Made by a program: the position numbers and the translations under genes
Notes under the pieces: generated by a model
The model's input: the letters and a program-made list of their open reading frames with translations, nothing else
What the model was told of the DNA's origin: nothing
Databases searched by the model: none
From: Pegea sp. RAD2-039
Taxonomy: Eukaryota; Chordata; Thaliacea; Salpida; Salpidae
Direction of reading: 5' to 3'
Length of the DNA stretch: 64,000 bases
Assembly: GCA_034620365.1 (NCBI GenBank)
Contig: JAQGEQ010000151.1
Location: 62,001-126,000 of the forward strand
In this document: positions 1,690 through 57,628 of the stretch, piece after piece
How positions within the stretch are numbered: the first letter of the stretch is position 1
How the letters are laid out: every line of letters starts with the position of its first letter

Positions 1690-3026
1690 CTAAAAAGTTT
1701 AAAAGTTTCCTTAATTGTAAACACATAAAGAAAAATAAATTAAAAAAATCAAATAATTGTAGAAAAAGCTACAAAATTATAGAAACTTTTTTTACATTTG
1801 AAAGAATTTAAAACTTTTGTTTCGAAACTGAATTATTTAAATTTACAAATTTCTAATTACATTTTGGAATATAAATAATATATATAAAGAAAAGAGAAAA
1901 AATAGAAATATTTTGATGATGGAAATAAACAACAAAAATATTATAATTAATAAAAGATATCATCGATATTTATGATGTTTAGCAAGAAATCATTTTTATC
2001 AGTCAAATAAATGTTTAATTAATAATAATTTTATCAGTTAAATAAATCAATCCGAATAAAACTCATAAATTAACCAATTTTATACAAATATAAAAGTTCA
2101 TATCACAAAATTATATATTTATACAAATATAAATAATTTTTAAGCTTATAAATAATTAAAACTCAATTTCATTTGACAACATTTACAACATTAAATAAAT
2201 TATATTTAAAAAAATTTTAAATATATCTACAATGTATAAAAATCATGTATTAATAACAAATTTAAACCATAAAGCTTTCTTAGTATAAAAAATTTTGTGT
2301 CAGTTTTAAAATAAATAAGAAATTAAAAGTAGAAAAATATTTTTATTAAAACTGTCATAACAGAAATGTATTTAATCTTGAAAAATGTTGATGAAGTAAG
2401 CGTTAAAACTATTAATGAACTAAAAGTATATAACAAATAGATCTTGGATACAAATAGAACCAGTGAAGCATAACAACAGAAAGCCGAAAGAAACCATTAC
2501 TCCATAAAAACCACAAAATTTACGGAAAAATTTTCTGAAAATAAACAGAAGCGATTAATTTTTATGAAATTGTTTATTATCATTAACAACTATTTTTACA
2601 TTCAAGCTTTACAATACAAATTTTATTTTTTTAATCTTTAATTATATTTTTTTTGTAAATATATAAAGATTTGAAGATATTTCTGATCCAAACTTGACTT
2701 TATCTGATAATTATTTTGATCTTTCAAATCATTTTCAGTTTCATCTAATTATTCTAATATCATTTCTTCTTTTAATAATCAAAATATGGTTTTATGTTTC
2801 AACTAATTTGCTCACTTTCTTCTTCTATTTCATCAGATTAAATTTTTAACTCATCATTTACTTATTCTTCTTCAGTGTTTCTTTCTCTATTAATCTTAAA
2901 TTATGAAACCTAAAAACCTCTTTGCTCGAAGTATTTGGTTTCTTCGAGAGCTGTTGAATTTGTCACTCGCAGCCATGTATTGAATGGAAAAACCCAAAAA
3001 CTCCCGATTACGTCACGATTACGTAG
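1690..3026. other. AT-rich intergenic stretch
   Basis: No gene is supported. A 37-bp segment at 2811-2847 recurs at 6867-6903, and a related motif beginning GCAGC lies near 2970 and again near 6904, so part of this flank is duplicated. Confidence 0.5.
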
Positions 3027-3540
3027 TGATGGGTTACATCGGTGACGTCACTATCGAAGTAGATGAAGAAGGTTGGTTTCGAAGTGATGACGTCGGTCGT
3101 TGTGATGACGACGGCTTTGTTTATATCTGCGGTCGTTTGAAAGGTGATGACGTCATCAGTTAAATGACATCACGTGACCCCATATGTTTGTAGATTTGAT
3201 GATGACGTCACAAGGTGATAAAATCGCTGCTCTAAAGATTGAGGCTCAACTTCGACGGGAAATTACCTTCTGACGTCATCGTCGCCAATCGCCGTCCTTA
3301 CGTCATTGCTCTATTTACGTTACAAGTGATGACGTCATCGGTGATGATTACATCACAAATGATTTTTGCGCAGTGCAAGCACGAAGAATCGATAAATAGC
3401 GGTGATGACGTCATTAGTGACGTATTGACAAAAGAAACGATCGAATTTTGTCGTTCAGCCGGAAGTTCTTCGTTTCGTTTGTCACAAATTTCTTCCGGAA
3501 AGGATTTGAACTTCAATGAAGCGATTCGAGTGAGTTGTGA
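3027..3540 (+). pseudogene. ACSBG-type acyl-CoA synthetase fragment, probable pseudogene
   Basis: The plus strand encodes the C-terminal third of a bubblegum-type (ACSBG) long-chain acyl-CoA synthetase. Visible are a segment with DEEGWFRSDDVG and GFVYICGR, equivalent to the adenylate-forming family motif ending in the hinge GR, and then NRRPYVIALFTLQC and LTKETIEFCRSAGSS, as in ACSBG. A GT-AG intron (3326 to about 3384) joins LFTLQ to CKH in phase. Near 3270 the frame changes: the open frame through KIEAQLRREI meets a stop while the matching frame resumes one register away. I saw neither the N-terminal AMP-binding part nor the last exons. In the family the enzyme activates fatty acids with ATP and CoA. 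This copy is truncated and frameshifted, so probably inactive, unless sequence errors or unseen exons explain it. Confidence 0.65.
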
Positions 3541-3663
3541 CGTCATCATCATATGTGAAATGTGACATCATCATCATACGTGAAATATGACGTCATCATC
3601 ATATGTGAAATGTGACGTCATCATCATATGTGAAATGTGACGTCATCATCATATGTGAAATGT
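3536..3663 (+). repeat. Short tandem array, 25-bp unit containing TGACGTCATCATCAT
   Basis: About five head-to-tail copies of a 25-bp unit lie directly after the last exon of the ACSBG fragment, starting at its apparent splice donor. Each unit carries the TGACGTCA palindrome, with one TGACATCA variant. Confidence 0.85.
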
Positions 3664-6600
3664 TAGAAAAGTTAGAAAATGTCACTTTTCAGTTTAAGCT
3701 TCTTAACAAATTAGTATAGATTTATGAAGCTTAGTCAATTATTTATTAGTTAAAGAACTTTAAAAAACTAATGTTGTGTAAAAAGTTAGTTTAAACTATT
3801 ATCAAATAACAAAAAATTCAATAATAGACATTAAACTAAACATGAGTTGTAGCTAAGAAATATTTTAGTGAATTGACAAACATAACAATCAAATTGATCC
3901 AATTTAACTCAATTCCTAGGAACACATCGATTTGATTCTTTGCATCGAAACTCATCCACATCGGATCTGCAGATAGCTGATTGGAGAATAACATCCAATG
4001 ATAAAGCTTCGATTCATACAAGTTCCTAAAATTCAAAATGTATCAAGATTAATTGAATAACGAACAAATTACAAATTTAAAACAATTCTATCATCATTTA
4101 CAAAACTGTGATGTAAAAACATTACTGACTGTTCTACATCACTAAATGATTTGGGTAACTTGCTGCTTTGTACTGACAATCATAAACTTCTTGACTTCAA
4201 GTCAGTTCTTCTTCAATCTTTTTTGAAATCTGCCAACAACTTCAAATCCAGATAACTTTTGTCAATAAATAAATCTTCAAACTCTAATCAACATCATTTA
4301 TCTTTTATCAAAAAATAATAACTTTTTCAAGTTCAGGTTCAAATACTTAATCATCTTGTAATCTTAAAATGAACTCACCAAATAAACTATTTGTTTAGAA
4401 TTTCTTCATCTGCTTCATACTAAATACTCAAATGTTTTAAAAGCAGAAGTATTAGGATGCTGTTTCACCTTAGGTTTATGGAACCCTCAAAGGTTCAAAG
4501 GTCTTTTTCTAGGCTTTCTTTACAAGCGGCATACCCTTTACTCCATATAAAGACCGTCTCTATAAGCTCACTATAAGATACTTACTATCAAAGCTCTTTC
4601 TACGACCTTTGTCTTCCTACTATCTTTTTAGGTGATCTAATTTGTGATACTTAAGACTTAAAAAAGTTGATTTCAGCTTAGAGAAGCAAGTTACTTGATC
4701 ATCATTACAATTTAACTTTCTATCATAATATGGATCGACTTCACCTCTAACAGCTTCTGTAACAATTCATAAAAAATCTTTTGACAAATAAGTAGTTGTA
4801 GAAGTTTTCACTTCTAGTATTTAGACCACCAACTTGTTATCAAAGTAACTAAATAACCGACAGTAAGTCAATAAACGACAGAAATATTCAAATAATAGAA
4901 ACTGTTTATTAACAACTTTAGAAAAATATATAGTTTAGAAAACAAGTTTATCATTAGATTACTTTTATTATTATCTATTTTGTTTTATTTATATTTTATT
5001 ATAATTCATGTTTTATATAAAACTTTTTAGTTTTTTAACAATTTTGTTAGCTTAAAATTAAATAATTTATTAAATGTAAAAAGTTCAAATTATTTATTCA
5101 AAATATTATTATAATTATCATTATTGTATTCAGCACAAAAACAACATTTATCAGCTAAAAGCTTGTTGTAGCTTCAAACAAATTATTTTAAAAGTCTCTC
5201 CATTAGTTTAAAACTAAATTATTAGACTTAGTTTGAATATAATAATAGAAATTTCATTTTAACATGTTCAGTTTTTGTTCAAAACTTATTTTCGTAGAAA
5301 TCATTTCAACTAACGTTTTATTCCACCAAAAGTTGATATAATGAAGACAAAAACCCAAATTTCATCTTTTAAATCAAATTTTCTTTGAGTTCAAAGTTTT
5401 ACTAAAAAACAAGATGTTAAAATGTTAATAGAATAAATAATAATTTAAAAATTGTACTTACGCAAATATCAAATAATATTTTATCTATTAATATTTAAAA
5501 TGTTTCTACTTCAACTGAATATAATTTCAATTAGTTACAAATCTATTATGGTTTGTTTGCGTAAATATTTGATATAAATTTTGTGGATTTTCAAATAATC
5601 TGTTTCAATTTTCTTAATTATTTGTTTATTAAGATTTATTTTAAAGCTCAGATGTTAGATTTCATTAGTGGTTGTTACTATCACAGCTAAAATAAAGAAA
5701 ATTAAAAGAAACTGATTTGTCGATAAGGTTGCTTCAGTCTCTGTTAGAAATTTTTATCTAAATAATAAAAAGACTTAAAAAGAAAAAGTATTATTATGAG
5801 AGTAAGTTTTCTGCTTTTATAAGAAAATTAACTTTTTTAAAACCATTAGTTGATAATTAAAAAGATTTTTCTGAAATGAATAGAAGATTTTTATTGAAAT
5901 TACTAATTTGTGATCTTTATTATCTTTGAATTTTTAAACTTGACTTATTGCAACTGTAGAAAATGTTCTTTTGTAAAATAGCTTTATTGAAAATTAAAAT
6001 ATTTTAATATTCAATTAGCTGTTCAAGCAACTATTTTCAAACTGAAAATAATTTATATGTATCAAAAAAATTAAATTTAAAATCAACAATTTGTTTTACA
6101 ACTTATTTTCCGGAACTAAAAACTTTTATTTCTTTTTTTTTATCATCTATTTGATAAATATCCTGAAAAAGTAAAACTAATAAAAGTTTAATTCTTTAAT
6201 TATTACACTCAAAATTTATCAGTAAATTTTCTTGCAATAAATCAAATACTTTTTTGGTCGTTTGAAACTTTTACTTTAAAAGTTTATTCAAATAATCTGA
6301 AAACTCACCGCGAATATACCGCGAAAAGATTTGAGCCAACACTTGCAAGTAACATTCTTTCAGCTAATCACTTACAAATGTAGTAGAACTACAAAATGTA
6401 GAAAATATAAACTGTTATTGCCTTGGTGCAATATTCTGTTGTTAATTATTCATCAATTGAAAACTTTTATTATTCAAATCTGAAACTTATTTCAGTCTGA
6501 TAGAAATCTTAGATCTTTTATTTTTCAAAAACAGAAGAGACTCTAACTTTTTTAAACTATTATCAACAAAATATTTCGAAAACCTTTTTTGGTACAACTT

Positions 6601-8127: not shown

Positions 8128-11100
8128 TCAGTCGATCTTCACTTGACTGTAAATCATTCTGATGAATCGATAAGAAGCATAAAAACCGATGGAGCCAGTC
8201 AGTATCCAGAAACTGATGACGATGATGATAGTGTAGCCAAAGTAGAGAATCGTTGGAACGAATGCAGTGATATCGAGCTGAAAACGAAAGTTGAAAAAAA
8301 AGAAGAATTTCTCGAAGTTTCTACCTGAGTGTGGAAATAAAAGAGTGAATAAAGAAATACGTAAACAGCAGAACCTCCAGAAACAATAAACGATCTCCAC
8401 CACCAATGATAGTCCTACAAACAATGCTTACGTGACGTCATCAAGCGGTGACGTCATCAGTTACCTCAGTACACAGCTGGAAGTAGACCATGACAATAGC
8501 AATTTGAGAACAAGCGATGATGAGGATGATGAAAACAAGAAAAAGAAACCCAAAAAGATAATAAAACTGATTTTCCCAAATCGCCTGATAAACAAATAGC
8601 GCGAGTGATGACGTCATCAGTGATGTTGTACTCGCTTACTGTGAAGATGAAGAAAAGTTCGATAAAAACTGCTCCAAAAGGAAGAACTCCCGCCATTAAG
8701 ACACTAAAAAAGTGTTTCCGATTAAAAAAATTTAATTCTAAAAGTGTTTCCAAACTGAATTTTTTTAATTCTAAAAGTGTTTCCAAACTGAATTTTTTTA
8801 ATTCTAAAAGTGTTTCCAAACTGAATTTTTTAATTCTAAAAGTGTTTCCAAACTGAAATTGTTTAATTACCTAGCAACAGTTCCTTTATACCATTGTTGT
8901 TCAGGAACTTGACGAGGTATTTGGTTAGTTCGAACTGGATTTTCATAAGAATGTTTTCGATAACCGAAATAAAATCCAACTACAACCAAAGGGAGAGAAA
9001 CACCAAACCACAAACTCAATATCAACAACATGGTGGTGAAAGGTAACTGCAGACAACAACCAGATACTACATCTTCGTCTGTTTCTGGTTTATTTCAACT
9101 TACAGCTCCTGAAGAATGTTTTCCCCAAATAAAAAAGTTGAGAAGAAACGCGATAGAAGCACAGATGCCAGGATACAAAAGCGCGGTTTGAATCGCGGCG
9201 CGTTTCCATAATTGACCTTTTAAACTTTTATATAATCGACCACCAAAATATCCACCAAAAACTCTACAGAAAAAAAAGTATTTCCAATTTCGAAAACGCG
9301 ATCATGACGTCATCAACGCACCCCATCAACAAGTAGAGAGCGAAAGATGAATTTAGAAGTGAACCACGAGAAGACGGAGACAACATTCCCAGCATAGCAA
9401 CCACGATTGTTACTATGGACATCCCAAATACTTGAACTCCAGCTCCAAACAACGAAACTAACAACATTATCTGCAAGTGATGACGTCACAATCTCATTAT
9501 GCAGTGATGACGTCACATACGCGTCGCGGTGGTCGAAACACGTCACCATGAACCAATTTCCAACCAGTTTCTTCGAGAGCATCTTCCAAATCGTCATCGT
9601 CTCGATTATATTTCGCGATATCGCGTCGAAGCGTTCGAACAATTATCATCGTCAAAACACCTTCAACAAAAGCAGATGAGTGACGTCAGAAGCGCGTCAA
9701 TGACGTCATCACACCAGCGAGAAATAGAACGACGACGATTGAGTTGACGATGGAAAACCAGTGGATTTGAACGTCACCCATCGACAAGTAGTTGTCCCAT
9801 CGTGAAGCCCAACGCACGCTACTTTGCTGTTATGACGTCATTGATGATGTCATCAGTGTGCATATGACGTCATCACTCACTTCCCATTTCACTTCATAAG
9901 TGAATAAAAGAGAAGTTGTATCTTTGTTGAGAACTTGTTTGCTTCGATCGGCGCTGATGTCACAGATGACGTCATCAGTTGTAGCGACGGAGGTGCGCGA
10001 TATTGAAGCGGGAAGGACTTCGAAACCAACCACCCGGAAAGTTCCATCAGCTGCATTATCGTTGTATCTGTAGATGTGACGTCATCAACAACTCGAGCAA
10101 GTGACGTCATCAACTGACTTTAGACGAATGATGAGATGATTATTGATGACGTAAGAGCCATCGGCGAGTCGCGCGCCGAGTTTGTAGCCGTGTTCGACGA
10201 TTTCTTCATCTGCTACAGACAGATGTGTTGCTGATGGTAAATTATCCGCTAATCTATATAATAAAGATGATGATGACGTCATCAGAGTTCGCGATCTTAC
10301 AAGTGGATTGAATAGTCTTCTTTGATTCGTTGAATGAATTTTTCAATTTGATTTTCAGTTAATTTCTTTTGACATAAAACTGAACAAGATTTCTCATTCA
10401 TCATGTTGACTTTGTAAGGAGTGTTGACAATACGATCACCACGAAGAACCTCACCTGGAAGCAGATGAAGATCAAGTGAGGATTAGATGAAGATCAAGTG
10501 AGGATTAGATGAAGATCAAGTGAGGATCAGATGAACATCAAGTGAAGATCAAATGAAGATCAAGTGAGGATCAGATGAAGATCAAGTGAAGATCAGACGA
10601 AGATCAAGTGAAGATCAGATGAAGATCAAGTGAGGATCAGATGAAGATCAAGTGAAGATCAGACGAAGATCAAGTGAAGATTAGATGAAGATCAAGTAAG
10701 GATTAGATGAAGATCAAGTAAGGATTAGATGAAGATCAAGTGAAGATTAGATGAAGATCAAGTGAAGATCAGATGAGGATCAAGTGAAGATTAGATGAAG
10801 ATCAAGTGAGGATTAGATGAAGATCAAGTGAGGATCAGATGAAGATCAAGTGAAGATGTGTCAAGTCATCGCTCATATGAAACATATCTTTGTAAAATAT
10901 GTCATAAAACTTGACTCATTTATTATTTGGTTTTTTTCGACTTTTGAATAAAATTTCTTTTTTAAACAAAAATATTTAAAAACCCAAAAAAAGAATTTAT
11001 TAAAAATATTCAAAAGATAATTATTAACCCAAATTTTCAGTTTTATATTCCAACTTTGCAGGTTCACAAAAACCAAGTGAATAATATTCATAAGGTAATT

Positions 11101-15088: not shown

Positions 15089-18000
15089 ATGAATAATAAT
15101 AATACATTTTATAAAAAGAATTTTCCAAACCTTCAAAGATTTATTTCTAAATATCCTGACGATGAATTAAATCTTTTTACTGATTACGGAACCTTAGAAT
15201 GTGTTGATGTCAATTTAGAAGTAAATTTAAAAATAAAAAATTCATCAAAATTCAATTGTTTCTTTCCAGGTTGAAAATCAGAATTTTTGTCCTTTATCAA
15301 AAAATCATGGATTATTATCATCAGCAAATAATAATAAAAGGTCACGACCTCTTACCTAGAAGATGACGTCACTAAATCGTTGCCTTGCAGATATTTATCT
15401 CCAAAGTGTCCAGCTCTACCTCTAAGAGCTGGATTATGTCCTTCAACTTTATCAACTGATTCCTCTATAGCTGATTATTTTAACATTTTTCATCAAACTG
15501 ACTTCACCACTTCCACTGTTGACAACCAGCTCAGTATGTGATGACGTCATCGCACGCTTCAGTGACGTCATCAGCTTTTATGCAGATGTAAATAGAGATT
15601 TGATAAATTTAGCAAATGATCAACCAGATATTCATAATAAGATGATGTTAGAGATGACAGCAAAATATTTCGCCATGAAGGAAAGTAGTCATCAAAAAAA
15701 ACAAAAAATGATCTTCCAACCGAAAGATGTAAGATCTTCTCACTGATCCTCATCTTCTTCTGATCTTTATGATCTTTAGGTGTATCCCTGTTCAAGTCGA
15801 TTACTTCCCGGATTCAAATCCAGTTTTGTTCCCAAATATTTCCCTCCTCTTGACTGGTCATCTTTTGATCTTCCAAATTCAATCTTGGCTCCAATTGTAG
15901 CTGAAGCAAAGCAACAAGAGGTTCTGGATCATTATGAAGATCAAAGATACGTCGGAGGAGTTCTCAGATACATCCGCCTCAGTCATCTGTGAGTTGATCT
16001 TCATAATCTTCATCACTTCCTGATCTTCATCACTTCCTGATCTTCATCACTTCCTGATCTTCATCACTTCCTGATCCTCATCACTTCCTGATCCTCATCT
16101 TCTCCTGATCTTCATCACTTCCTGATCCTCATCACTTCCTGACCCTCATCACTTCCTGATCTTCATCACTTCCTGATCTTCATCACTTCCTGATCTTCAT
16201 CACTCCCTGATCTTCATCACTTCCTGATCTTCATCACTTCCTGATCTTCATCACTTCTTGATCCTCATCACTTCCTGATCCTCATCACTCCCTGATCATC
16301 ATCACTTCCTGATCTTCATCACTTCCTGATCCTCATCACTTACTGATCCTCATCACTCCCTGATCTTCATCACTTCCTGATCCTCATCACTTCCTGACCC
16401 TCATCACTTCCTGATCCTCATCACTTCCTGATCCTCATCACCTCCTGATCTTCATCACCTCCTGATCTTCATCACTTCCTGATCTTCATCACTTCCTGAT
16501 CTTCATCACTTCCTAATCCTCATCACTTCCTGATCCTCATCACTTCCTGATCTTCATCACTTCCTAATCCTCATCACTTCCTGATCTTCATCACTTTCTG
16601 ATCGTCATCACTTCCTGATCCTCATCACTTCCTGATCCTCATCACCTCCTGATCTTCATCACTTCCTGATCCTCATCACTTCCTGATCCTCATCCCTTTC
16701 TGATCTTCATCACTTCCTAATCTTCATCACTTCCTGATCTTCATCACCTCCTGATCTTCATCACTTCCTGATCTTCATCACTTCCTGATCCTCATCACTT
16801 CCTGATCTTCATCACTTCCTGATCTTCATCACTTAATGATCTTCATCTCTTTCTGATCCTCATCACCTCCTGATCTTCATCACCTCCTGATCTTCATCAC
16901 TTCCTGATCCTCATCACTTCCTGATCTTCATCACTTCCTGATCTTCATCACTTCCTGATCCTCATCCCTTTCTGATCCTCATCACTTCCTGATCTTCATC
17001 ACTTAATGATCTTCATCTCTTTCTGATCCTCATCACTTCCTGACCCTCATCACTTCCTGATCCTCATCCCTTCCTGATCTTCATCACTTAATGATCTTCA
17101 TCACTTCCTGATCCTCATCACCTCCTGATCTTCATCACCTCCTGATCTTCATCACTTCCTGATCTTCATCACTTCCTGATCCTCATCACTTCCTGATCTT
17201 CATCACTTCCTGATCTTCATCACTTCCTGATCCTCATCACTTCCTTATCTTCATCACTCCCTGATCCTCATCACTTCCTGATCTTCATCACTTCCTGATC
17301 CTCATCACTTCTTGATCCTCATCACTTCCTGATCCTCATCACTCCCTGATCTTCATCCCTTTCTGATCCTCATCACTTCCTGATCTTCATCACTTCCTGA
17401 TCCTCATCACTTCCTGACCCTCATCACTTCCTGATCCTCATCACTTAATGATCTTCATCACTTCCTGATCCTCATCACCTCCTGATCTTCATCACCTCCT
17501 GATCTCCATCACTTCCTGATCCTCATCACTTCCTGATCCTCATCACTTCCTGATCTTCATCACCTCCTGATCTTCATCACTTCCTGATCTTCATCACTTC
17601 TTGATCTTCATCACCTCCTGATCTTCATCACTTCCTGATCTTCATCACTTCCTGATCTTCATCACCTCCTGATCTCCATCACTTCCTGATCTTCATCACC
17701 TCCTGATCTTCATCACCTCCTGATCTTCATCACTTCCTGATCCTCATCACTTCCTGATCCTCATCACTTCCTGATCCTCATCACCTCCTGATCTTCATCA
17801 CTTCCTGATCTTCATCACTTAATGATCTTCAAACTTGATCTTCATCACCTCCTGATCTTCATCACTTCCTGATCTTCATCACTTCCTGATCTTCATCACT
17901 TCCTGATCTTCATCACTTCCTGATCCTCATCACTTCCTGATCTTCATCACTTCCTGATCCTCATCACTTCCTGATCTTCATCACTTAATGATCTTCATCA

Positions 18001-20260
18001 CTTCTTGATCTTCATCACTTAATGATCTTCAAACTTGATCTTCATCACCTCCTGATCTTCATCACCTCCTGATCTTCATCACTTACTGATCCTCATCACT
18101 TCCTAATCCTCATCACTTCCTGATCTTCATCACCTCCTGATCTTCATCACTTCCTGATCTTCATCACCTCCTGATCATCATCACTTCCTGATCTTCATCA
18201 CTTCCTAATCTTCACCACTTCCTGATCCTCATCACTTCCTGATCCTCATCACTTCCTGATCCTCATCACTTCCTGATCTTCATCACTTCCTGATCTTCAT
18301 CACTTCCTGATCTTCATCACTTCCTGATCCTCATCACTTAATGATCTTCATCACTTGATCCTCATCACTTCCTGATCTTCATCACTTCCTAATCTTCACC
18401 ACTTCCTGATCCTCATCACTTCCTGATCCTCATCACTTAATGATCTTCATCACTTGATCTTCATCACTTAATGATCTTCATCACTTGATCTTCATCAGGA
18501 GCAACTCATCTTTTGAATTCGGACTTTTGATCTCTTCTCAAGGACCTTCTTTGGATCATTTGAATATTGAATTGATTAAAACTCCTCAAAACTTCCAAAA
18601 AGTCTTCCTCAAATTTCAACCAATCACCAAGCAGCATTTTCCTTTTTTGTAGATTTCTGATTTTCTTCCGATTCGAGGTCAAAGATTCAGTTTTGACGTC
18701 AAATCGAGAATCTTTCAAACAGAAGTCACGACTGATGACGTCATTGATTCACTTCATTACGTCACAGCGCGAACTTGTGGCGGTTTATGGCTCTTCAGTA
18801 TCAACCCGAGGCTTGTTGACGTCATTGATGGTGAAGCGCGATTTAGATGTGATGACGTCATCAAGCATGTTAGCACATTACAACTAGCGGACGTGACGTC
18901 ATGCGTTCAAAGTCCTCACGTCATCAACGAGCGTTTATTCACGACTCAAACAAATGAAATTCATATTTGGAATGTTGAAACTTCAGAAGTGACTTTTTTG
19001 GCTTTTTTCGATTTTTCCAAAAATTCAAATTTTTTTTTAGTTTTTGATTCGAGTTGATGACGAAAGTTCGTTGAGTCGCGATCGCGTCTTGATGACGTCA
19101 TTTGGCGCTCACCCTCGACAACTAGTTGTTGGAAAATCAAATAAACTTCAACTTATCGATTGGCGAAGAAAAGCTTCGAAATCGACGTAAATGACGTCAT
19201 CATCGCGTTTGTGACGTCATTCATTGTTGATTACAGATTACTATTTGAAGTGAGCGATAAAGAAGTGATGACGTCACAGGTGAAAGGAGCGAATCACTTC
19301 GAGATCTTCTTTTCGACGAATTATCATCTTTATCAAATCGACCAAAGATTTCCAAAATTTCCAATCCTCAATTGGAGTCTGAATTTAAGGTGATGACGTC
19401 ATCGTCGCTGACGTCACTACTCACGTGATTTGTTGTTCAGTCATCCGTGTCAAATGATGAACTTCTCGACTTGGTGTAATGCTGATGACGTCACAAACGA
19501 TGGTTTGTTGATCGCTGCAAATCAATTTCCGCGCGAAGTTGTCGCGTTCCACTACGGATGGAAAAATGACGTCATCAAGCACCCTCCTACCTCACTCACG
19601 CCTCCCAGGATTTTCTCATCTTTCAATGACGTGTTTGATCGCGTTATTGATGACGTCACTGATGGGCCAACTATGAAAACGACCATTTTAGCTCAACATT
19701 TTCGAGAGCCTCTGATTGGTTTAACAACTTTTCGAGTTAGTTCCGCTTCAATGATTTTGCAACAAAATGGCGCCGGTGACATCATCTCTCAAAGCATCGG
19801 TTCCGGTGATGACGTCATCGATGATGATTCTACTAAACTCTTCGAACAGTTCACTTGTGACGTCATCAAAGTTTTAGATCAACATCCGATGAAAGATACG
19901 ATCACACAAATCAAAGGTGACGTCATAGTTGATCCGGTCGAAGTCTCCGAAGATGAAGATCAGGAAGATATTGAGATCCCTGATCTGATTGATGTGAATA
20001 ATCCTCCTTCTCAACTCGCTGATCTTCTGATCTCAACGTGGGATGAAGATTACGAAGATGTTTGGAAAAAACAAGAAATTGAAAGAAAAAAGACTGATAG
20101 GAAAATTGATTCAAAACTTTTTGATATTTCAAAAGATCAGAAAGAGATTTCTTCTAAAGATCAAGATCATAATGAAGAGAGATCTTTAGTTGTATTTACA
20201 AAGAAGAATAAGAAGAAGATCAAACAAAAGAGCAAACAAAGAAGTCTTGGTTTCAATTGA
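15089..20260 (+). CDS. TAF1C: TAF1C-like RNA polymerase I transcription factor subunit
   Basis: Ten exons keep phase and give 756 residues: 15089-15220, 15270-15340, 15391-15537, 15575-15728, 15780-15988, 18499-18601, 18653-18988, 19041-19186, 19237-19389, 19441-20260. The middle resembles the beta-propeller region of TAF1C (TAFI110), a subunit of the SL1/TIF-IB complex that recruits Pol I to rDNA: ISDFLPIRGQ, RTCGGLWLF, FGAHPRQLVVG, STNYHLYQIDQRFPKFPIL. The C-terminus is acidic, then strongly basic, and ends KSKQRSLGFN, recalling the RMGF-type end of vertebrate TAF1C. The start at 15089 is the first ATG of the frame; an acceptor-like TTGTAG lies just upstream, so a further 5' exon is possible. 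Intron 5 is a 2.5-kb minisatellite. Many DDVI peptides come from the TGACGTCA motif. The assignment rests on spaced motifs rather than a long alignment. Confidence 0.7.
15989..18498 (+). repeat. 2.5-kb intronic minisatellite, 17-bp CTGATCTTCATCACTTC unit
   Basis: The whole of TAF1C intron 5 is well over a hundred head-to-tail copies of a 17-bp unit with C/T variants (GATCTTC or GATCCTC) and occasional CACTTAATGATC variants. The array begins within about 20 bp of the donor, and the last copy (CTTCATCAG) provides the AG acceptor. The sense strand is strongly pyrimidine-rich. Confidence 0.97.
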
Positions 20261-23785: not shown

Positions 23786-24286
23786 TATTTTTTATTTCTA
23801 GCTTATTTTCTTCAAAAAAACTTTTTTCCAATTTCATCATTTCAATAATTTTGTTTTTAAATTATTTTGTTGCAAATCAACAGCAGATATCAAAAAGTTT
23901 CAAAACTAGAATTATTTTTAACTGGATTCGATCTTCTTGTGTTCCGAAGATCAATTTTAAATTTTTATTTTCTTCAAATTACATTTTGTTGCAAAATATT
24001 TCAAAGTTTTCAAATTTTAAAAATCTCAGATTTTTTTCTCAATTTTTTTTATTGCTTCATTTTTTTCACTCAAAAAAATCGCTGAAAACAAAATTAGATT
24101 AAAAAAAAATCAAAAAGAAGAAGATTAGGAAAAGATGAAGATCAGGAAGAGTTGAAAGAGATTTTGTCACAGTGTCATTTCAAAAATCATCTCAAGCAGA
24201 AAGATGATGACGTCATCACTGGTGTCGCAACTGATGACGTCAGCAGGTCGACAAATGTTCAAGTATTCGGTTACCATAGCAACATT
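23786..24286. other. Spacer between tRNA-Ile and the TMCC gene end
   Basis: Low-complexity AT-rich sequence, with several TGACGTCA sites from 24200 onward in what is probably the TMCC 3' flank or UTR. Overlapping open frames near 23851-24102 are Phe/Leu-rich and look non-coding. Confidence 0.45.
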
Positions 24287-27200
24287 TCAATTTGATGACG
24301 TCACAAATGATTTTAAAAACTGCCAATGATGATTTGTTATGATGAGTGACGTCATCAACACGACAATGAAAATAGTTGCTGCCTGTGAAGAAGAAGTGAT
24401 GACGTCATCACCACTCGCAAATTCACTCACCTGTGATTGGCCGATCTTCTTCACTCCGTTAACAACTGAGGTTGCTAGTAACAACAATAAAGCCAGAATC
24501 GCCATGACAACGTTCATTAGCTTGCCAACCAGATTGGACCAAACTTCATTGTCAGTTGTTTCAATTCTTCCTTCGCCAGTTCGTTGTTGTTGTCTTTCAA
24601 CTTCACTAATCCGTACTTGACAACTACCCACCGCTTCCTATAGTGATGATGACGTCATACAAACCACGATGACGTCATCAACATCACCTGCATTTGACGT
24701 GTCCTCTCATTTAGATGATAATCAAATTTTGCTTGCATACAATTCAACTCTTCTCTTAATCCATTCAAACCCGATTCTTGAAAACCAACTAAATTGTTCA
24801 CGTGACTTTCTAAACGCTCGTATCTGTGACGTCATATCTTACTGATGTATCAAATGTGATGACGTCATACCTGAAGCGTTCCTGTTGCAAAGTGTTGATG
24901 ACGTCACTGATGTCGTCATGAACTGATTGTTGAAAAGTTTTGAATTCTTCGCAAGTTTTTAAAAAGTTTTCTTTTACATCCTATAAAAACAATGACGTCA
25001 TCACCTGCTACTGATGACGTCATCACCTGCTACTGATGACGTCACAACAAACCTCAACTCCAGTTTTTAAAGAGCAAATTTCAGATAGAATTTGATGAAA
25101 ATGATGATTGATTCGATTTCTTTCATCCAAGATCGGATTTGAAGATTGAACAACTAAATTATCGACGACACCAGGTGGCGCTGTTCCACTTTTTATTTCA
25201 CATTCAGAATTCGAGCTGACGTCATCAGCACTTCGAACTACATCGTATTAGTTTAGGGGATTTTTTTTTTAATTTTTTACTCGAACCTTCTTCAATATCT
25301 TCACGAAGATTCTCGAAATTATCTGAACTTCCAAATCGCGATTTGAATTTATTAGCGAGTCCTTTAGGACGATTTACTAAAACTTCATGAGTTACTTGCT
25401 TCAAACCACCAACAACACCACCAGATATTCCACGAATATTATCGCGAAATCGGCGACTTGTTTGTGACGTCATATCGCGTGATTGAAGTTCACGAATTCG
25501 ATTTTCATATGCTTCATATTTTCGTTTCAACTGTTAACAAGTGACGACGTCACAGAGACGACGATGACGTCACACAGACGAAGATGATGTCACAAACACG
25601 ACAATGACGTCACAAACACGACCATGACGTCACACAGACGAAAATGATGTCAAACACGAAGATGACGTCACTACCACGACAATGACGTCACAAACACGAC
25701 ATGACGTCACAAGCACCACGATGACGTCACAAACACCACGATGACGTCACAAACACGACGTGAAGTCACAAACACGACATGACGTCACAAACACGACGAT
25801 GACGTCACAAACACGACATGACGTCACAAACACCACGATGACGTCACAAACACGACGTGACGTCACAAACACGACGATGAAGTCACAAACACGACATGAC
25901 GTCACAAACACCACGATGACGTCACAAACACGACGTGACGTCACAAACACGACAATGACGTCACAAACACGACATGACGTCACAAGCACCACGATGACGT
26001 CACAAACACCACGATGACGTCACAAACACCACGATGACGTCACAAACACGACGTGAAGTCACAAACACGACGATGAAGTCACAAACACGACATGACGTCA
26101 CAAACACCACGATGACGTCACAAACACGACGTGACGTCACAAACACGACAATGACGTCACAAACACGACATGACGTCACAAGCACCACGATGACGTCACA
26201 AACACCACGATGACGTCACAAACACGACGTGAAGTCACAAACACCACGATGACGTCACAAACACGACGTGACGTCACAAACACCACGACGACGTCACTAA
26301 AACTACGATGACGTCACAAACACGACCTGACGTCACAAACACCACGACGACGTCACTAAAACTACGATGACGTCACTTACTTGTTGTATATGGGTCCTGG
26401 ATTTTTGGTTTTTTCTTTCAAAAGCATTTTTAATTCGACTCAATTGACTTCTGTCAGCTGATTTCGTCAAACGCAAATATTCAGCGACATACTCATCTTG
26501 AGATTTCTTCTCAACATTCAACTGCTCACTAAGATTAATTCAAGATGACATCATCAGTTGTGACGTCATCAACTTCTTACTTGATGCGAAGAATTTTCGA
26601 TTGAAGTTGCTCGATACTTGCTTTGTTCTTTGATGTATCTGATGACGTCATCATTCCATCTACTACGTCAGCTGATGGAGCAACTGATGACGTTTCGTCT
26701 GCTAAAAATAGATTTGAAATGGAGGCCTGTGATTGGACGATATAAAAACCAATGAGAGAGAAGTCATCTGTTGCATCAAGTGATTCGGAAGTGAGGAGGG
26801 CTCCTGCGGACACAATCTCTTCTGGAAGATCAGGTTCAGGATCTTCTTTAAAGACATCTTCAGTTGCTGGCAGAGATGGGATATTCTCTCTACTGTTTGT
26901 CGGCGAAAGTTCAGAGGGAGCTCTGAGAAGAAGATGAAGATCAGAAGAAGATGAAGATCAGAAGATGATGAAGATCAGAAGATGATGAAGATCAGAAGAT
27001 GAATATCAGGAGAAGATGAAGATCAGAAGAAGATGAGGATCAGAAGAAGATGAGGATCAGAAGAAGATCAGAAGAAGATGATAAAAATTAGAAGATGATG
27101 AAGATTAGAAGAAGATGCAGATGAGAATAAGATGAAGATCAGAAGAAGATGAGGATCAAGTGATGAAGATCAAGTGATGAAGATCAAATGGTGAAGATCA

Positions 27201-27583
27201 AATGATGAAGATCAAGTGATGAGGAACAAGTGATGAAGATCAAGTGATGAGGAACAAGTGATGAGGATCAAGTGATGAAGATCAAGTGATGAAGATCAAG
27301 TGATGAAGAGCAAGTGATGAAGATCAAGTGATGAAGATCAATAAGTAGTGAAGATCAAGTGATGAAGAGCAAGTGATGAAGAGCAAGTGATGAAGATCAA
27401 GTAATCATCTTACCTGGATTCAGCTGATTCATTCATTTCAATATTTGATGAAATATCAAGCTACATAAAAAACTGAATAAAAAAAGTGATTTATGGAAAG
27501 AGACTTACCTGTAAATTGGAAGGTGAATTACATCGAGTATCTTTATTCAATTTTCTAAAATTATTTTGTACTTTTTTTAGCAT
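24287..27583 (-). CDS. TMCC-family transmembrane and coiled-coil protein
   Basis: Ten exons keep phase and give 510 residues: 27583-27509, 27460-27414, 26922-26581, 26528-26381, 25530-25287, 25180-25053, 24980-24871, 24823-24688, 24637-24431, 24382-24287. After a low-complexity N-terminus comes the family core: SIEQLQSKILRI, EYLRLTKSADRSQLSRIKNA, FERKNQKS, then VLVNRPKGLANKFKSRFGSS, matching the KPKE...RNKFGSADN block of TMCC1-3. The coiled coil continues with YERLESHVNNL and LREELNCMQAKFDYHLNERT. Two hydrophobic helices close the protein: LVGKLMNVVMAILALLLLLA and ATIFIVVLMTSLII. TMCC proteins are ER-membrane proteins; TMCC1 acts in endosome fission at ER contacts. The exon-6 acceptor was set at 25181 because the alternative reading hits a stop. 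Two introns (26923-27413 and 25531-26380) carry minisatellites. Confidence 0.85.
25531..26380 (-). repeat. Intronic TGACGTCA minisatellite
   Basis: About 850 bp of roughly 18-20-bp units pairing TGACGTCACAAACAC with CACGA or GACGA spacers on the plus strand fill the TMCC intron between exons 4 and 5. Occasional TGAAGTCA and TGATGTCA variants occur. On the sense strand the array starts at the donor (GTAAGTGACGTCATCG). Higher-order repetition of blocks of several units is visible between 25740 and 26220. Confidence 0.95.
26923..27413 (-). repeat. Intronic minisatellite, GATGAAGATCA(A/G) unit
   Basis: About 490 bp in the TMCC intron between exons 2 and 3. On the sense strand it reads CTTGATCTTCATCA, then CTTCTGATCTTCATC close to the acceptor. 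The last unit merges into the TTCTTCTCAG acceptor. Confidence 0.93.
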
Positions 27584-28951: not shown

Positions 28952-31042
28952 TCAAAAGCTTTCTTTTCCATTTTGTGAGTTGAAATAAAAGTAAATTCGT
29001 TTAGAAATTTCAGGACCGATTTTTCGAACAGTTTTAATTCCTAGACTTCTATTAATGTTGATTCCAGCCAACAAATTCATTTTGAAATCTTCATCTTCTT
29101 CATTTCGATAAGCTTCATTCAGATATTTTACACTTGGATATTTTTGTGCAATAGATGAAGCAATATCTCCACTAACACCAGGAAATTGTTGCAACATTTG
29201 CTTGAAGCATGTTAACTTTGAAGGTTCATCAACAACCTAAAGATAAAAATTCAAATCACTTCAAAAATCATTTATTTGAAATAAGAAATAAATTTTTGTT
29301 GAAATTTTATGAAATCTTTTAATATAAATGAAGAAATATTTTGTGACAAATTTGTGGCACACCTTTATAGAAGGTAAAGTATTGATAAACTTGATTTGAT
29401 TTTTGGTTAATTTCTTGAATTCTTGTTCAGCTACAGCTTTTGTAAAACTTTGAATAATCTTGATACAATCATCAGTAGTCTCAGCAAATCTTACATCAAT
29501 TCTTTTATCAACTTCTAAATCCACTAACAAAGATCGAAAATCTTTCCAATTCACTGAAACCTTTTTATTTTTTCGACTTTTCGATTTGAATTTATTCATT
29601 TCAAAACAAACTAGATGAAAATTGAAGGTTTCTTTCGAATTTTGCCAAAAATCTAAAAATAATTTGAAATTTTTGGTTTGCTTCTGATCTGAAATAAGAA
29701 GATTATTGACAAGATCTTTAGCAGTAAAGAACACAACAACATGAGGACTTATATCCTTCTCATAAAGATGATAACTTTCATTTAAATGATTTATGCTCAC
29801 AGTGTGTCTTTTCCATTGGATGTAAGTGAAATCATTTTGAACAATCTCAAATTGAGCATCAAAATCTTTCTTTAGATCTTCTATTTTAGGATCAAGTTTT
29901 AGCATTTTGATGATTCCTTCATCCAACAAACAAATGACTTTCTTCAAACTATTTTCTGGTTTTATTTCAGCAACAATTTCTCGGAGATCTTCTTTTTCTT
30001 TTACAACTTTTCTTTCTTTTCTTGATCTTATTGAAGGTTCTAAAGTTTTGAAACAAGTTTTCACTGATTGAGACCTCGTCCGTTTTCTTTTGTTTGTTTT
30101 TGGAGTTGAGCAAACTGGTTCTGATACTTCAGAAATTTCAACTGAAGCATCTGAATCAATTGGTTTTGAAGAAAATTGAACTTTTTTACAATCAATTTTA
30201 CTGAAAATACTTTTTTTAAAACAATTTTCATAGAAATCATCAAATTCATCATATTCACTAGCTTCACTGTATTCATCACTTCCACCTCCTTTGTCACTGA
30301 TCTTCACATGATCTTCATTTCTGATCTTCACATGATCTTCATCTCTGATCTTCACATGATCTTTATCTCTGATCTTCACATGATCTTTATCTCTGATCTT
30401 CACATGATCTTCATCTCTGCTCTTCACATGATCTTCATCTCTGATCTTCACATGATCTTCATCTCCAATCTTCACATGATCTTCATCTCTGATCTTCACA
30501 TCATCTTCATCTCTGATCTTCACATGATCTTCATCTCTGCTCTTCACATGATCTTCATCTCTGATCTTCACATGATCTTCATCTCTGATCTTCACATGAT
30601 CTTCATCTCTGATCTTCACATGATCTTCATCTCTGATCTTCACATCATCTTCATCTCTGATCTTCACATGATCTTCATCTCTGATCTTCACATGATCTTT
30701 ATCTCTGATATTCACGTGATCTTCATCTTTGCTCTTCACATGATCCTCATCACTGATCTTCACATGATCTTCATCTCTGATCTTCACATGATCTTCATCT
30801 CCAATCTTCACATGATCTTTATCTCTGATCTTCACATGATCTTCATCTCTGCTCTTCACATGATCTTCATCTCTGATCTTCACATGATCTTCATCTCTGA
30901 TCTTCACATGATCTTTATCTTTTGCTTCTTTTCTTTTTGCTTCTTTTCTTTTATCTTCAACTTTAATTTGAAACTTTCCAAGTTTTTCATTAACATCAAA
31001 AGAATCATCAAAAGATAAATTCCAGTGCGAAGACATCTCCAA
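28952..31042 (-). CDS. EME1: EME1-like subunit of the MUS81 structure-specific endonuclease
   Basis: Two exons (31042-29363, 29236-28952) give about 654 residues. The C-terminal half matches EME1: a nuclease-like domain with SFTKAVAEQEFKKL, then a tandem helix-hairpin-helix end with QFPGVSGDIASSIAQKYPSV, NLLAGININ and IGPEISKRIYFYF. EME1 pairs with MUS81 to cut branched DNA at stalled forks and in recombination intermediates. EME1 lacks the catalytic motif of MUS81, and I see none here. The N-terminal third is dominated by about 25 copies of an 8-residue repeat (DEDHVKIR with variants), charged and probably unstructured, between residues of about 40 and 250. It is followed by an acidic segment and a TPKTNKRKRTRS basic motif. 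The start could be 31042 or the second Met at 31036. Confidence 0.85.
30292..30925 (-). repeat. Translated 24-bp minisatellite inside EME1
   Basis: About 25 head-to-tail copies of a 24-bp unit containing GATCTTCACATGATCTTCAT on the plus strand. The period is a multiple of three, so the frame is kept and the minus strand reads DEDHVKIR. Changes between copies are mostly D/E, I/S and R/K/G substitutions. Confidence 0.96.
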
Positions 31043-33104: not shown

Positions 33105-35865
33105 TTACAATAAAGACATTTGAAGAGTTAAATTTTTGCTTTTGATGTTGAATTTTGCTAAAACTTCATTTTCATTAATTTCTTTTTCCAACTTTAATTT
33201 TAAATTATAATTTCCCGAAGAAAAAAATCGGACTTGTTTCTAAAAAAAAAAATTTAAAAAATATCCCAAAAAAATTATTTTTTTTTTACTTTTGAGACTT
33301 CAACTTCGAAATTTTTTTGATCTTCAACTAAAGGAGCAAAAATCTTCAACTTCAGACCATTTTCAATTTCTTTCAAAACATATTTTGGTTCCGTTTCAGT
33401 TTTTGAGTCTTCAAAACAACAATTTATCTTTTGATTTCTTCAGTTTTTCAACTTACCAATTTCTTCAATTAATTTCTTTTTAGATTTTCCTCCAATTTCC
33501 TCAAAAATATTTATTCCAGTCGCGTCATCGCTACTTGGTGTGACGTCATCGTTCATTGATAGTTGTTCGAGAAGAGAATCAGGAGAAGACATAAAATTTT
33601 GAATGTTAGTCTCAGATGTAAGTTTATCTATAACATCGGGTTTGTCGAGAAATAGTGACCGAGGATTAGAAGGAAAAACCCCGCAGAAAATTTCTTTAGA
33701 TACCGAATAATTTGGATCAAGATTTAACTGTAAAAGATAAAGATCAAAAATAGAGATTAGAAAGTTGTAAAGAGAAGAAGTGATGAGGATCAGGAAGTTT
33801 TAATTATCAGAAACTTACTTTATTTAGTTGTGAACTGAATTTCAGAATCAATTGAATAAAATCTTTTTTGTCATTTTCATTTGTTTTGATTTCTTTCAAA
33901 ATTCGATCATTAACAGCGACATGAAAAAATAAACCGAAATTTCCCTCTGAAAAATAATTACTTAAAACATTACAACCAATCAGCAACCATCTACCAACCA
34001 ATCAGCAACCATCTACAACCAATCAGCAACCATCTACCAACTAATCAGCAACCATCTACCAACTAATCAGCAACCATCTATCAACCAATCAGCAACCATC
34101 TACAACCAATCAGCAACCATCTACCAACTAATCAGCAACCATCCACCAACCAATCAGCAACCATCTACCAACTAATCAGCAACCATCTACCAACTAATCA
34201 GCAACCATCTACAACCAATCAGCAACCATCTACCAACCAATCAACAACCATCTACCAACCAATCAGCAACCATCTACCAACCAATCAGCAACCATCTACC
34301 AACTAATCAGCAACCAACTACCAACTAATCAGCAACCATCTACCAGCCAATCAGCAACCATCTACAACCAATCAGCAACCATCTACCAACCAATCAGCAA
34401 CCATCTACCAACTAATCAACAACTATCTACCAACCAATCAGCAACCATCTACAACCAATCAGCAACCATCTACCAACTAATCAGAAACCATCTACCAACC
34501 AATCAGCAACCATCTACCAACCAATCAGCAACCATCTACCAACCAATCAGCAACCATCTACAACCAATCAGCAACCATCTACCAACCAATCAGCAACCAT
34601 CTACCAACCAATCAGCAACCATCTACCAACCAATCAGCAACCAACTACCAGCCAATCAGCAACCATCTACCAACTAATCAACAACTATCTACCAACCAAT
34701 CAGCAACCATCTACAACCAATCAGCAACCATCTACAACCAATCAGCAACCATCTACCAACCAATCAGCAACCATCTACCAACCAATCAGCAACCATCTAC
34801 CAACCAATCAGCAACCATCTACAACCAATCAGCAACCATCTACAACCAATCAGCAACCATCTACCAACCAATCAGCAACCATCTACCAACCAATCAGCAA
34901 CCATCTACCAACTAATCAACAACCATCTACCAATCAATCAGCAACCATCTACCAACCAATCAGCAACCATCTACCAACCAATCAGCAACCAACTACCAAC
35001 CAATCAGCAACCATCTACCAACCAATCAGCAACCAACTACCAGCCAATCAGCAACCATCTACCAACTAATCAACAACTATCTACCAACCAATCAGCAACC
35101 ATCTACAACCAATCAGCAACCATCTACAACCAATCAGCAACCATCTACCAACCAATCAGCAACCATCTACCAACCAATCAGCAACCATCTACCAACCAAT
35201 CAGCAACCATCTACAACCAATCAGCAACCATCTACAACCAATCAGCAACCATCTACCAACCAATCAGCAACCATCTACCAACCAATCAGCAACCATCTAC
35301 CAACTAATCAACAACCATCTACCAATCAATCAGCAACCATCTACCAACCAATCAGCAACCATCTACCAACCAATCAGCAACCAACTACCAGCCAATCAGC
35401 AACCATCTACCAACTAATCAACAACCATCTACCAACCAATCAGCAACCATCTACTAACCAATCAGCAACCATCTACAACCAATCAGCAACCATCTACTAA
35501 CTTTTTAATTTCTTTTTCAGCTTTTTTCCATTCATTAGCTGAATTGGTTCATTTTCATTATTTACATCTGGCATTCTTTTCCAACTACAGACGTTGATAA
35601 ATACGTCATATGTGACGTCATCTATCTGTAAATAAAACGTCAAACATTGATGATGTCATAATGAGTTGTTTACTTTTGATGACGTCACCACACAGAAATC
35701 AGCACGTGGCACTGACGTCATCACTTCTTTTTGTTCCATCTGTTTTTCAATGAAAGATTTATAAGCTTTAGGATCTGAAGTATGAAGATCGTCTAATCGA
35801 TCCCAAATAAATCTTGCTTCTTGCATCGTCATGGCAACCAAATTATTCAAATTTGCTGACGACAA
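33105..35865 (-). CDS. PIH1D2: PIH1 domain protein, PIH1D2-like
   Basis: Six exons keep phase and give 317 residues, matching the ~315 of PIH1D2: 35865-35689, 35625-35502, 33946-33819, 33727-33457, 33408-33290, 33239-33105. The N-terminus reads FIWDRLDDLHTSDPKAYKSF, then PRADFCV, as in the PIH1D2 opening. The PIH1 domain follows with VFINVCSWKRMP. The C-terminus has an alpha-crystallin/CS-like part: LKIFAPLV, SGNYNLKLKLEKEI and AKFNIKSKNLTLQMSLL. PIH1 proteins are HSP90 co-chaperones of R2TP-like complexes that pre-assemble axonemal dynein arms in the cytoplasm. The gene begins 117 bp after the stop of the CFAP221-like gene on the same strand. Intron 2 is a 1.55-kb minisatellite. The choice of PIH1D2 over PIH1D1 rests on the N-terminal motif and length. 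Confidence 0.78.
33955..35501 (-). repeat. 1.5-kb intronic minisatellite, 21-22-bp ACCAATCAGC unit
   Basis: About 70 head-to-tail copies of a unit reading AACCATCTACCAACCAATC plus AGC on the plus strand, with 21-bp (CTACAACC) and 22-bp variants, lie inside intron 2 of the PIH1D2-like gene. Longer-range repetition is visible: the order of 21- and 22-bp variants at about 34640-34950 recurs at about 35040-35360, suggesting block duplication. Confidence 0.95.
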
Positions 35866-56099: not shown

Positions 56100-57595
56100 A
56101 ATTTTCTCTAAAAGAATAATTAGCGAGAAGCTACCATCTCTCATCTGCTTTCGGTGAAGAACATCTACCTATCAACATCTATTAAATGAAGAGTGCACTT
56201 CTCGCTAACATACATTCTCACGAATAACAACTTTTAAGTTAAAAATATAGAAAGTAAAAGATGTAACACATGGCATTTCAGTAGTCCTCAAAATAATATA
56301 GCAGTGAACAATTACATGGAATGTTAATAATATTTAAAAAAAAGGAAAAATTCACAGTTTAGAAATGACAATGTTGGCAATATTATAACGGTTCAACTTC
56401 TGCTTGAACAACGCGAGCGACTTCGACATGACAATGTCTGATGGCAGCTGGTTCCATGTACTAATTGTGTGGTATGAGGAAAAAATCGCTCTGACCAATG
56501 TACTAGGTGATATGGGCTTATTAAGATGTAATGTGTGTCGTCTGAGCTGATATAACTTGAGGGAAGGACTAATAGAAAAGAAATTATCAAACTGAATGTC
56601 AATTAAATTGTGGATAATTTTAAAAATAAGAATTAAGTCGTATTTAATCCGTCGGATTTCCAAAGTATCTAAATTTAAGAAACTGATACGATGTTTATAA
56701 CTATCTTTTTAATATTAAGTTTCCTGCATACTAATCTCGTAAATGTAGCCTGAACAGATTCGATTTTTTTGATATCACTAACTTGATATGGCATCCATGC
56801 ACTAACATTGTATTCAAGAATTGGACGTACGTACAATTTGAAAAAATTGATTAAAAAGCATGAGTTCTTAGAAGTATTGGTTCAAGGAATTTACAACTGG
56901 TTTACGAGAAAAAGTTATAAGTTCAGACTTTGTGGGCAGGATTCTGAGCTGCCAATTCGTAGAACAGTTTTCTATAGTGTGTAGTGCAGTTTGAAGTTTT
57001 GAAGAATTATTAGATAATAGCTTGATATCATCTACATGCACAAACACTCTGACATCATCTACTGCTACTAATCTTCTGATGAGGTCTTCGATGAAAATTA
57101 AAAAGAGAAGGAGACCCAGAACAAAACCCTGAGGAACACCACTAGTGATTTGACTAGGAGTAGATAACGATCTTTCTACACGAGTTTGTTGGGTTCTACC
57201 TGATAGGTAATCTTCAATCCACTGTAAGATAAAGCTGTTGATTTTTAAGTTTTTCAATACAGTAACGAGCTTAGTGTGTGGGACAGAATCAAACGCTTTA
57301 GCGAAGCTGAGATATATGATGTCACAGGGAGTGTTAGTTTCGTAATGGGCTGTTAGCTCATTAAAAAAAGTAAGATGTTGAGTCAGGGAAGATCTCTGTT
57401 TCACAAAGCCATGTTGGACATCAGATATTAGATGGTGCTCCATCAAATGACTGGTCATATGATTGTGAATGATATGCTCTTGAGTTCTGCAGATAACTGA
57501 AGTCAGCGAAACTGATCTGTAGTTAAGTGCAGTGTTTCTGGGACTCTTTTTATGAATTGGAGTAATAATAGCTTTCTTCCAAATTTTCATGAAAG
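56100..57595 (-). mobile_element. 5'-truncated, decayed CR1/L2-like LINE
   Basis: The minus strand holds reverse-transcriptase remnants. Frame 57590-56868 has ITPIHKKSPRN, LNYRSVSLTS, FAKAFDSVPHTKL and GVPQGFVLG, and HVDD at the place of the catalytic (Y/F)xDD box. A second frame nearby has LYVRPILEYNVSAWMPY, and 56663-56352 has the C-terminal domain (TISTWNQLPSDIVMSKSLALF). Order and motifs fit CR1/L2-type non-LTR elements. The 5' part of ORF2 (endonuclease) and ORF1 are absent, and frame breaks between the pieces show it is dead. The 3' end near 56120-56240 contains an 11-bp inverted repeat. The copy lies between the CUB gene and the EAPP locus. Confidence 0.88.
56120..56208. repeat. 11-bp inverted repeat at LINE 3' end
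   Basis: TTAGCGAGAAG at 56120-56130 and its perfect reverse complement CTTCTCGCTAA at 56198-56208 flank 67 bp. In transcript orientation they could form a stem at the extreme 3' end of the LINE RNA, possibly where the reverse transcriptase recognises its template. Confidence 0.75.
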
Positions 57596-57628
57596 TTATT
57601 CAAATTTTTACTGACTCAAACTTATCAC

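Follow-up and report, generated by a model that had tools for sequence, protein, structure and literature searches.

Sense-oriented, branch-site-like minisatellites occupy introns in a Pegea genome

In a 64-kb stretch of the Pegea sp. RAD2-039 genome (the window; contig JAQGEQ010000151.1, positions 62,001 to 126,000, or C17:62001-126000 in a 105.7-Mb assembly of 387 contigs), six introns in five genes contain tandem arrays of a short core that reads (C/T)TGATC(T/C)TCATC on the transcript strand. Arrays of this family ran in sense in every intron that we counted, mostly began near the donor and ended near the acceptor, and consist of a unit that resembles a branch site followed by a pyrimidine stretch. 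We consider it probable that minimal introns of about 50 nucleotides (nt) were expanded by a repeat family that is their own 3' module, with polarity inherited from the seed and kept by splicing.

A preliminary description of the window had named these six arrays on both strands. All six were recovered by Tandem Repeats Finder (TRF), with which we located tandem arrays:

10455-11028, minus strand: TM9SF4 intron, with bounds placed manually according to the reading frame; array 10462-10857 of a 22-mer equal to two core units.
15989-18498, plus strand: TAF1C intron; array 16006-18497 with 148 copies of the 17-mer ATCTTCATCACTTCCTG.
26923-27413, minus strand: TMCC intron, filled by a 14- and 17-mer array at 26926-27402.
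43540-44625, plus strand: first ABCD4 array intron, filled by a 14-mer array of the TTGATCTTCGGATG type at 43543-44616.
45544-47677, plus strand: second ABCD4 array intron (2134 nt), filled by an array of the 15-mer TTTCTGATCCTCATC at 45549-47671.
61209-62012, plus strand: STX5-like intron; array 61466-62010, acceptor CTTAG set by hand.

As first described, the last unit abuts the AG acceptor, 1-9 nt away in all six introns (TM9SF4, 7 nt; TAF1C, 1; TMCC, 3; ABCD4, 9 and 6; STX5, 2). In four of the six the array also starts 3-17 nt past the donor, so that the intron is filled; the TM9SF4 array lies 171 nt from its donor and the STX5-like array 257 nt from its predicted one. The TAF1C intron runs from the exon through GTGAGTTGATCTTCATAATCTTCATC, the 148 copies of the 17-mer and CTTGATCTTCATCAG to the next exon, with the array beginning 17 nt after the donor and stopping 1 nt before the intron ends, and it is free of AG from the donor GTGAGT to the final AG. 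The second ABCD4 intron is AG-free up to its acceptor, whereas the first, unlike most others, holds 80 GT and 17 AG; the acceptor of this first intron was set by hand, the next exon having been missed by our gene model. Pfam backs four of the five gene names: TM9SF4 (EMP70, 2e-145), TAF1C (TAF1C_beta-prop, 1e-8), TMCC (Tmemb_cc2, 1e-13) and ABCD4 (ABC_tran, and ABC_membrane_2 at 8e-34 with an alignment unbroken across the first array intron). The STX5 piece gave no hit in the Pfam search and was named by reading. Because the genome contains the 20-mer CTGATCTTCATCTGATCTTC 110 times and its reversed control not once, the window arrays are not a product of chance.

Exon and intron bounds were called with a purpose-built two-strand gene hidden Markov model (HMM), trained on the window and C21:400001-600000, which included intron costs and an acceptor model kept short (seven positions) so that repeats were unable to pull the acceptor call. 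Beyond the window, we analysed twelve 6-kb loci around exact matches to the 20-mer on either strand, out of about 30 clusters listed, together with 200 kb of contig C21 and both ends of an NF1-like intron (L001 and L008). This yielded 21 counted intronic arrays in 16 genes: six in the window, one INTS1-like array in C21, which entered the sample through that stretch and not through the 20-mer, and 14 at other loci. Arrays of AATCTTCTTCT (the second in L030, and L031) were included as relatives. Reading frame or AG served to adjust the bounds manually in TM9SF4, the first ABCD4 intron, STX5, L031, NF1 and INTS1; in the last of these, the HMM's own acceptor lay 212 nt away. The L030 introns 2752-3689 and 3799-4417 come from one HMM run, and a more heavily masked rerun merged them. 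Masking of arrays pushes the HMM to call coding-like arrays introns (window 30297; C21 54973 and 57553); the two in C21 were left aside as coding-like, by reading. Three loci on C50 (L032-L034), with sense-looking arrays before a repeated open reading frame (ORF), stand outside the 21 because of their uncertain gene context.

For 14 of the 21 arrays, the host gene and its strand are backed by Pfam hits above cut-off. In a first set, nine of ten gene pieces (all but STX5) agreed in both, comprising TAF1C, an ABCD-type transporter, TM9SF/EMP70, TMCC, dynein heavy chain (DNAH), a PPIP5K-like protein, a Tec-like kinase, a vitellogenin-type lipoprotein and CCDC47. In a second set two of seven were above cut-off, L031 (Kringle) and L036 (Med26/TFIIS-N), the latter with a match that spans the array intron. 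A cadherin match in L038 fell below the Pfam cut-off, and the INTS1-, NF1- and L030-pieces had no Pfam hit. The names INTS1, NF1, EME1 and STX5 are presumed from the translations.

All 21 counted intronic arrays are in sense (sign test, 1e-6), in line with the earlier statement that the arrays are always sense, which had omitted an antisense array in coding sequence. Their assignment to the 3' splice site holds in part: 17 of the 21 end within 26 nt of the acceptor, and 13 within 12 nt, but 15 also lie within 17 nt of the donor. Among arrays that do not fill their introns, those of TM9SF4 and STX5 are at the acceptor and that of CCDC47 is at the donor. Several genes have more than one array intron (three in L030; two each in L037, L029 and ABCD4). 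Across the window and the C21 stretch (264 kb together), eight of nine word clusters, or seven of eight arrays, are intronic and sense, the ninth is coding, and none is intergenic. We also compared nine hand-picked arrays of other families, leaving out, as doubtful or coding-like, window introns 52450, 53498 and 57576 and C21 9350, 54973, 57553, 146789 and 159155, as well as an array cut by the end of L037. These arrays start at a median of 4 nt from the donor and end at a median of 60 nt from the acceptor, compared with 9 nt for the core family (p = 0.005). Of the families compared, it is the branch-site-like one that regularly sits where the 3' signals belong.

Two further stretches in the window carry the core outside the counted introns:

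30297-30920, minus strand: EME1-like coding exon array, 26 copies of a 24-mer, core antisense to the gene.
24113-24156, minus strand: 44 nt with 2.6 copies of the 17-mer CCTGATCTTCATCTTTT, near convergent gene ends; uncounted.

The coding array is in frame within a 610-codon ORF, where it encodes the peptide repeat DEDHVKIR; it is an exon in the unmasked HMM and an intron when the array is masked. The ORF matches ERCC4 (6e-5) just below the Pfam cut-off, at 23.5 versus 24 bits. Its unit is nearly identical to the TM9SF4 intron unit in the opposite orientation, which shows that such a sequence can exist inverted at a place outside the reach of splicing. The shorter stretch would be antisense at an intron end if the HMM's doubtful last plus-strand exon, 24146-24207, held, an exon that we distrust.

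Variation among units is consistent with a branch-site reading. The numbers of distinct variants at successive positions of the core TGATCTTCATC, counted in 1,184 units from 17 arrays, were 2, 19, 6, 3, 16, 20, 4, 13, 14, 12 and 15 (chi-square p = 5e-5). T1, A3 and T4 are quiet, as is T7, and N2 is free, which is the YTNAY pattern; of 1,183 bases that precede a core, 1,160 are C or T. A context-dependent mutation bias is less likely, because T4 (3 variants) and T10 (12) differ although both lie in ATC. In the 13 introns with 12 nt or less between array and AG, a branch point at the usual distance should fall inside the repeat. The suggestion that the arrays are amplified branch-site and pyrimidine modules thus gains from the low variability of TNAT, with its free N, and from unexpanded stretches that carry the module, while the units themselves would be putative branch sites, judged from sequence. 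Complementarity of the core to spliceosomal small nuclear RNAs, by eye TGATCTT to U2 and TAATCTTC to U6, was also considered and was dropped; 6-mers complementary to these RNAs were unremarkable (mean z of 0.43 for U2 versus 0.20 for the same-strand control, and 0.04 versus 0.41 for U6).

The arrays are also poor in AG on the strand that is spliced. In 20 arrays (20,082 nt), the sense strand has 34 AG where composition predicts 236, and the other strand has 3,516. The introns of TAF1C, ABCD4 (second), L030 (first), L036 (second) and PPIP5K, 1.1-2.5 kb long, contain no AG between donor and acceptor, with AG-free runs of 2503 of 2510, 2132 of 2134, 2192 of 2194, 1309 of 1311 and 1146 of 1153 nt in five introns. 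The INTS1-like intron has 7 AG and 56 GT. X-to-G changes within arrays were too few for a test of selection against new AGs.

Short introns offer candidate seeds for such arrays. Of 287 well-flanked predicted introns, 160 measure 45-59 nt, where the length distribution peaks. Within a set of 183 minimal introns, to which C21 contributed 117, few words are as sense-polar as those of the arrays: TCTTCT 29:0, TCATCT 25:4, ATCTTC 26:6 and GATCTT 23:7. YTNAY with its A 15-20 nt from the intron end is enriched in the same set (33 and 32 versus 19 expected). In the window, array words also stand at the end of the intron that precedes the TAF1C array intron:

15743-15779, plus strand: 3' end of that earlier TAF1C intron, which has no array: ctgatcctcatcttcttctgatctttatgatctttag, with array words beside an ordinary acceptor.

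Genome-wide, the pattern GTAAGT..TGATCTTC..TTTCAG had 16 matches of 48-66 nt (20-80 nt allowed) that look like introns, for example at C21:1168542, whereas the antisense word between the same flanks had four, including two 32-nt copies of a single element (16 versus 4, binomial 0.012). With GTGAGT as the donor, 27 matches reduced to 10 independent ones (one of just 29 nt) versus two antisense. The redundancy reflects three copies of one element and 14 near-identical copies of a 67-nt GTGAGT...TTTCAG stretch (on C64, C104, C136, C261, C267, C273 and C286), which resembles a mobile minimal intron or a repeat element. Intron-like stretches with two or three units occur at C1:5593782-5593830 and C59:399723-399780, the latter with two ABCD4-type units. 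A donor followed within 30 nt by one sense core was found 105 times, about 75 of the 100 listed matches being independent and 21 being one string, and a donor followed by one antisense core 49 times, about 24 after those inside sense arrays were dropped by eye. That string, GTAAGTTTGATCTTCATC, is identical in all 21 (C172, C174, C179, C217, C376, C377 and other contigs) and is probably one dispersed element. Single words thus favour sense by about 3:1, and arrays by 21:0. The pattern TGATCTTCATCNNTTTTGATCTTC had no match in the genome; the acceptor-side pattern TGATCTTCATCN{0,30}TTTCAGG had 34, which do not enter the comparison of sense with antisense. A COX1 profile had no match in the assembly.

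The preliminary description had argued that the shared orientation speaks against the spread of a satellite, and here our results differ. The genome has 151 exact copies of the TGATCTTCATCACTTCC dimer, the listed ones spread over at least 23 loci on many contigs (gene context for two, TAF1C and L030), which makes it a dispersed family with one unit at many unlinked loci, as in a satellite; the indifference to orientation and gene part that would go with a satellite is not seen. Seeds must move or be copied, because the independent origin of an identical 17-mer at so many loci is unlikely. Since the 17-mer unit is dispersed, the shared orientation is better explained by sense-biased seeds and a splicing filter. 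Between introns the unit differs in length (11 to 22 nt) and in its ends.

Under the expansion of minimal introns that we favour, the unit would be a branch site, (C/T)TNA(T/C), together with the AG-free pyrimidine stretch of an intron 3' end, and one or more units would act as the branch point. Arrays would lengthen by slippage, unequal exchange or template copying, and existing arrays would donate new seeds to other introns by copying, directed by short homology to a resident sense word. Antisense growth would be removed, as it would place an AG and a GAAGA-type purine motif every 11-17 nt of intron; the seed would set the polarity and splicing would enforce it.

Several observations weigh against this account. 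The L038 and CCDC47 arrays end 89 and 139 nt before the called acceptor, and five of the 21 introns carry an AG less than 100 nt from it (first DNAH, 25 nt; second L030, 34; first ABCD4, 91; third Tec, 90; CCDC47, 10). Antisense minimal introns with two units exist at C6:2030850 and C11:1979140, and three donor-side matches to the antisense word (C19:353891, C259:217515 and C3:738547) could be antisense arrays. In short introns the TGATC word is spread along the length and not placed at branch-site distance. T7 is as quiet as T1, A3 and T4, with no branch-site reason, and the variant counts are not fully separable from homogenization or mutation bias; a T1-to-A change also makes an AG. The last four units are no better kept than the rest (YTNAY in 63 of 68 versus 1057 of 1115), which fits use of all units or homogenization. 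AG-poverty is partly a consequence of an AG-free unit. The route of spread between introns is a guess. Exon bounds are predictions from a home-made HMM and the reading frame, and the strand of seven of the 21 arrays (INTS1, NF1, three in L030, STX5 and L038) comes only from the HMM or from reading.

One alternative is that any minimal-intron sequence expands locally by slippage, with polarity merely that of the parent sequence and splicing passive, so that arrays touch both splice sites solely because the intron was 50 nt long. We regard this as unlikely, though it has points in its favour: other, unrelated families likewise occupy whole introns or begin at the donor (25531-26380, 33947-35501 and 62373-63194 in the window; L036 872-2528; L037 1324-2880), seeds are already sense-biased by about 3:1 to 5:1, and intron-wide local expansions are known on chicken dot chromosomes (PMC12954441). 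However, independent local origins would not be expected to give the identical 17-mer dimer at so many loci, 21 of 21 in sense goes beyond a 3:1 seed bias (0.76^21, about 0.003), and T-N-A-T is quieter than most neighbouring positions.

If instead the unit dispersed blindly to orientation into genes and spacers, as a satellite or by insertion of extrachromosomal circular DNA, and antisense intronic copies were purged as splice-breaking, then a 17-mer common to many loci would be expected, as would the near-identical antisense unit in the coding exon, where no splicing filter acts. This account also predicts spacer copies on both strands, yet none of the nine clusters in 264 kb is intergenic; no flanking element was seen, and most arrays lie between splice sites. 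We find it distinctly unlikely. Highly improbable, in our judgement, is that each array arrived as a new, introner-like intron with donor and acceptor made at its ends. The donor or acceptor sometimes does fall within the first or last unit (CATCAG in TAF1C; GTAATCTTC in ABCD4) and single genes can hold two or three array introns, but the units vary twofold in length with no common element ends, and intron-like stretches of 48-58 nt with one to three units provide a simpler path.

A further reading joins redundant branching with spread through RNA, and we hold it to be rather unlikely. Each unit may be a usable branch site, in which case a 2-2.5-kb intron would contain more than 100 equivalent branch points, and all of them, with no AG on the way from donor to acceptor, would serve one AG. 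Excised introns of nearly pure repeat may, in turn, template the repair of other introns; such RNA-templated spread would give sense-only, intron-only dispersal with no element ends.

Other repeats were also noted. Further minisatellite families fill introns from the donor in the window (33973-35501, 25546-26376, 62385-63134 and 8731-8868), and at 33947-35501 the donor GTTAGTAGATGG is itself within the repeat unit. A second family, TGTCCCATT(T/A)GCC, occurs in introns of different genes, both times in sense (window 62385-62802 and L037 1472-2872). The palindrome TGACGTCA is found 218 times in the window versus 47 in 200 kb of C21, in exons (peptides MTSS and DDVI) and introns. L032, L033 and L034 on C50 are a repeated locus with a transfer-RNA-like stretch, a core array and then a common ORF with TKVVYAGFDAKAP. 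Window 56871-57599 contains a fragment that by eye (FAKAFDSVPHTKL) resembles a reverse transcriptase of a retroelement lacking long terminal repeats, and similar pieces occur in C21 and L033.

One genome here shows possible steps from a 50-nt to a 2.5-kb intron, and suggests that a splicing code, in which the branch site is kept and AG and purine motifs are excluded, determines the repeats that an intron may contain. Introns of more than 2 kb that lack AG and carry many repeated candidate branch sites offer a natural test of the reach of spliceosome scanning between branch point and 3' splice site, and a dispersed, sense-only family makes RNA-templated spread of intron sequence testable.

In the open-access literature that we searched, no report of branch-site minisatellites filling introns was found; a dispersed branch-site unit that fills introns in sense is a combination that we did not find, although intron-wide expansion itself is known. 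Tandem UACUAAC repeats in Gomafu/MIAT bind SF1 and alter splicing kinetics in vitro (PMC3116199); those are tandem branch sites of the yeast consensus in a noncoding RNA, whereas the units here lie in introns of many coding genes. In intron 5 of dog LHX3, a short intron with a small tandem repeat, loss of one unit impairs splicing, but there the repeat comprises six 7-bp units and the effect is one of length between donor and branch site (PMC3223203). In Daphnia pulex introns, CT, CTT and CTTT repeats are denser than their reverse complements, and AAG repeats are denser on the sense strand of coding sequence, like the EME1-type coding array; these are short simple repeats with a partial bias, and the consulted portion of that report describes neither a branch-site unit nor intron filling (PMC3152781). 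The closest likeness is sequence stuttering on bird dot chromosomes, where short intron sequences have undergone massive tandem expansion detectable by TRF, median intron coverage by simple repeats reaches up to 93% on some chromosomes, and repeats may include the donor or acceptor (PMC12954441, Genome Biol Evol 2026). Tandem expansion within introns is shared with the 21 arrays counted here, none of the nine clusters being clearly intergenic, whereas local origin of each cluster is not, as at least 23 loci have the identical 17-mer dimer. Stuttering, in the parts of that account on which we draw, concerns GC-rich dot chromosomes and locally arising clusters with no branch-site unit described; the Pegea arrays, by contrast, lie in an AT-rich genome, have a unit common to dozens of loci, are in sense in every counted case and are mostly free of AG.

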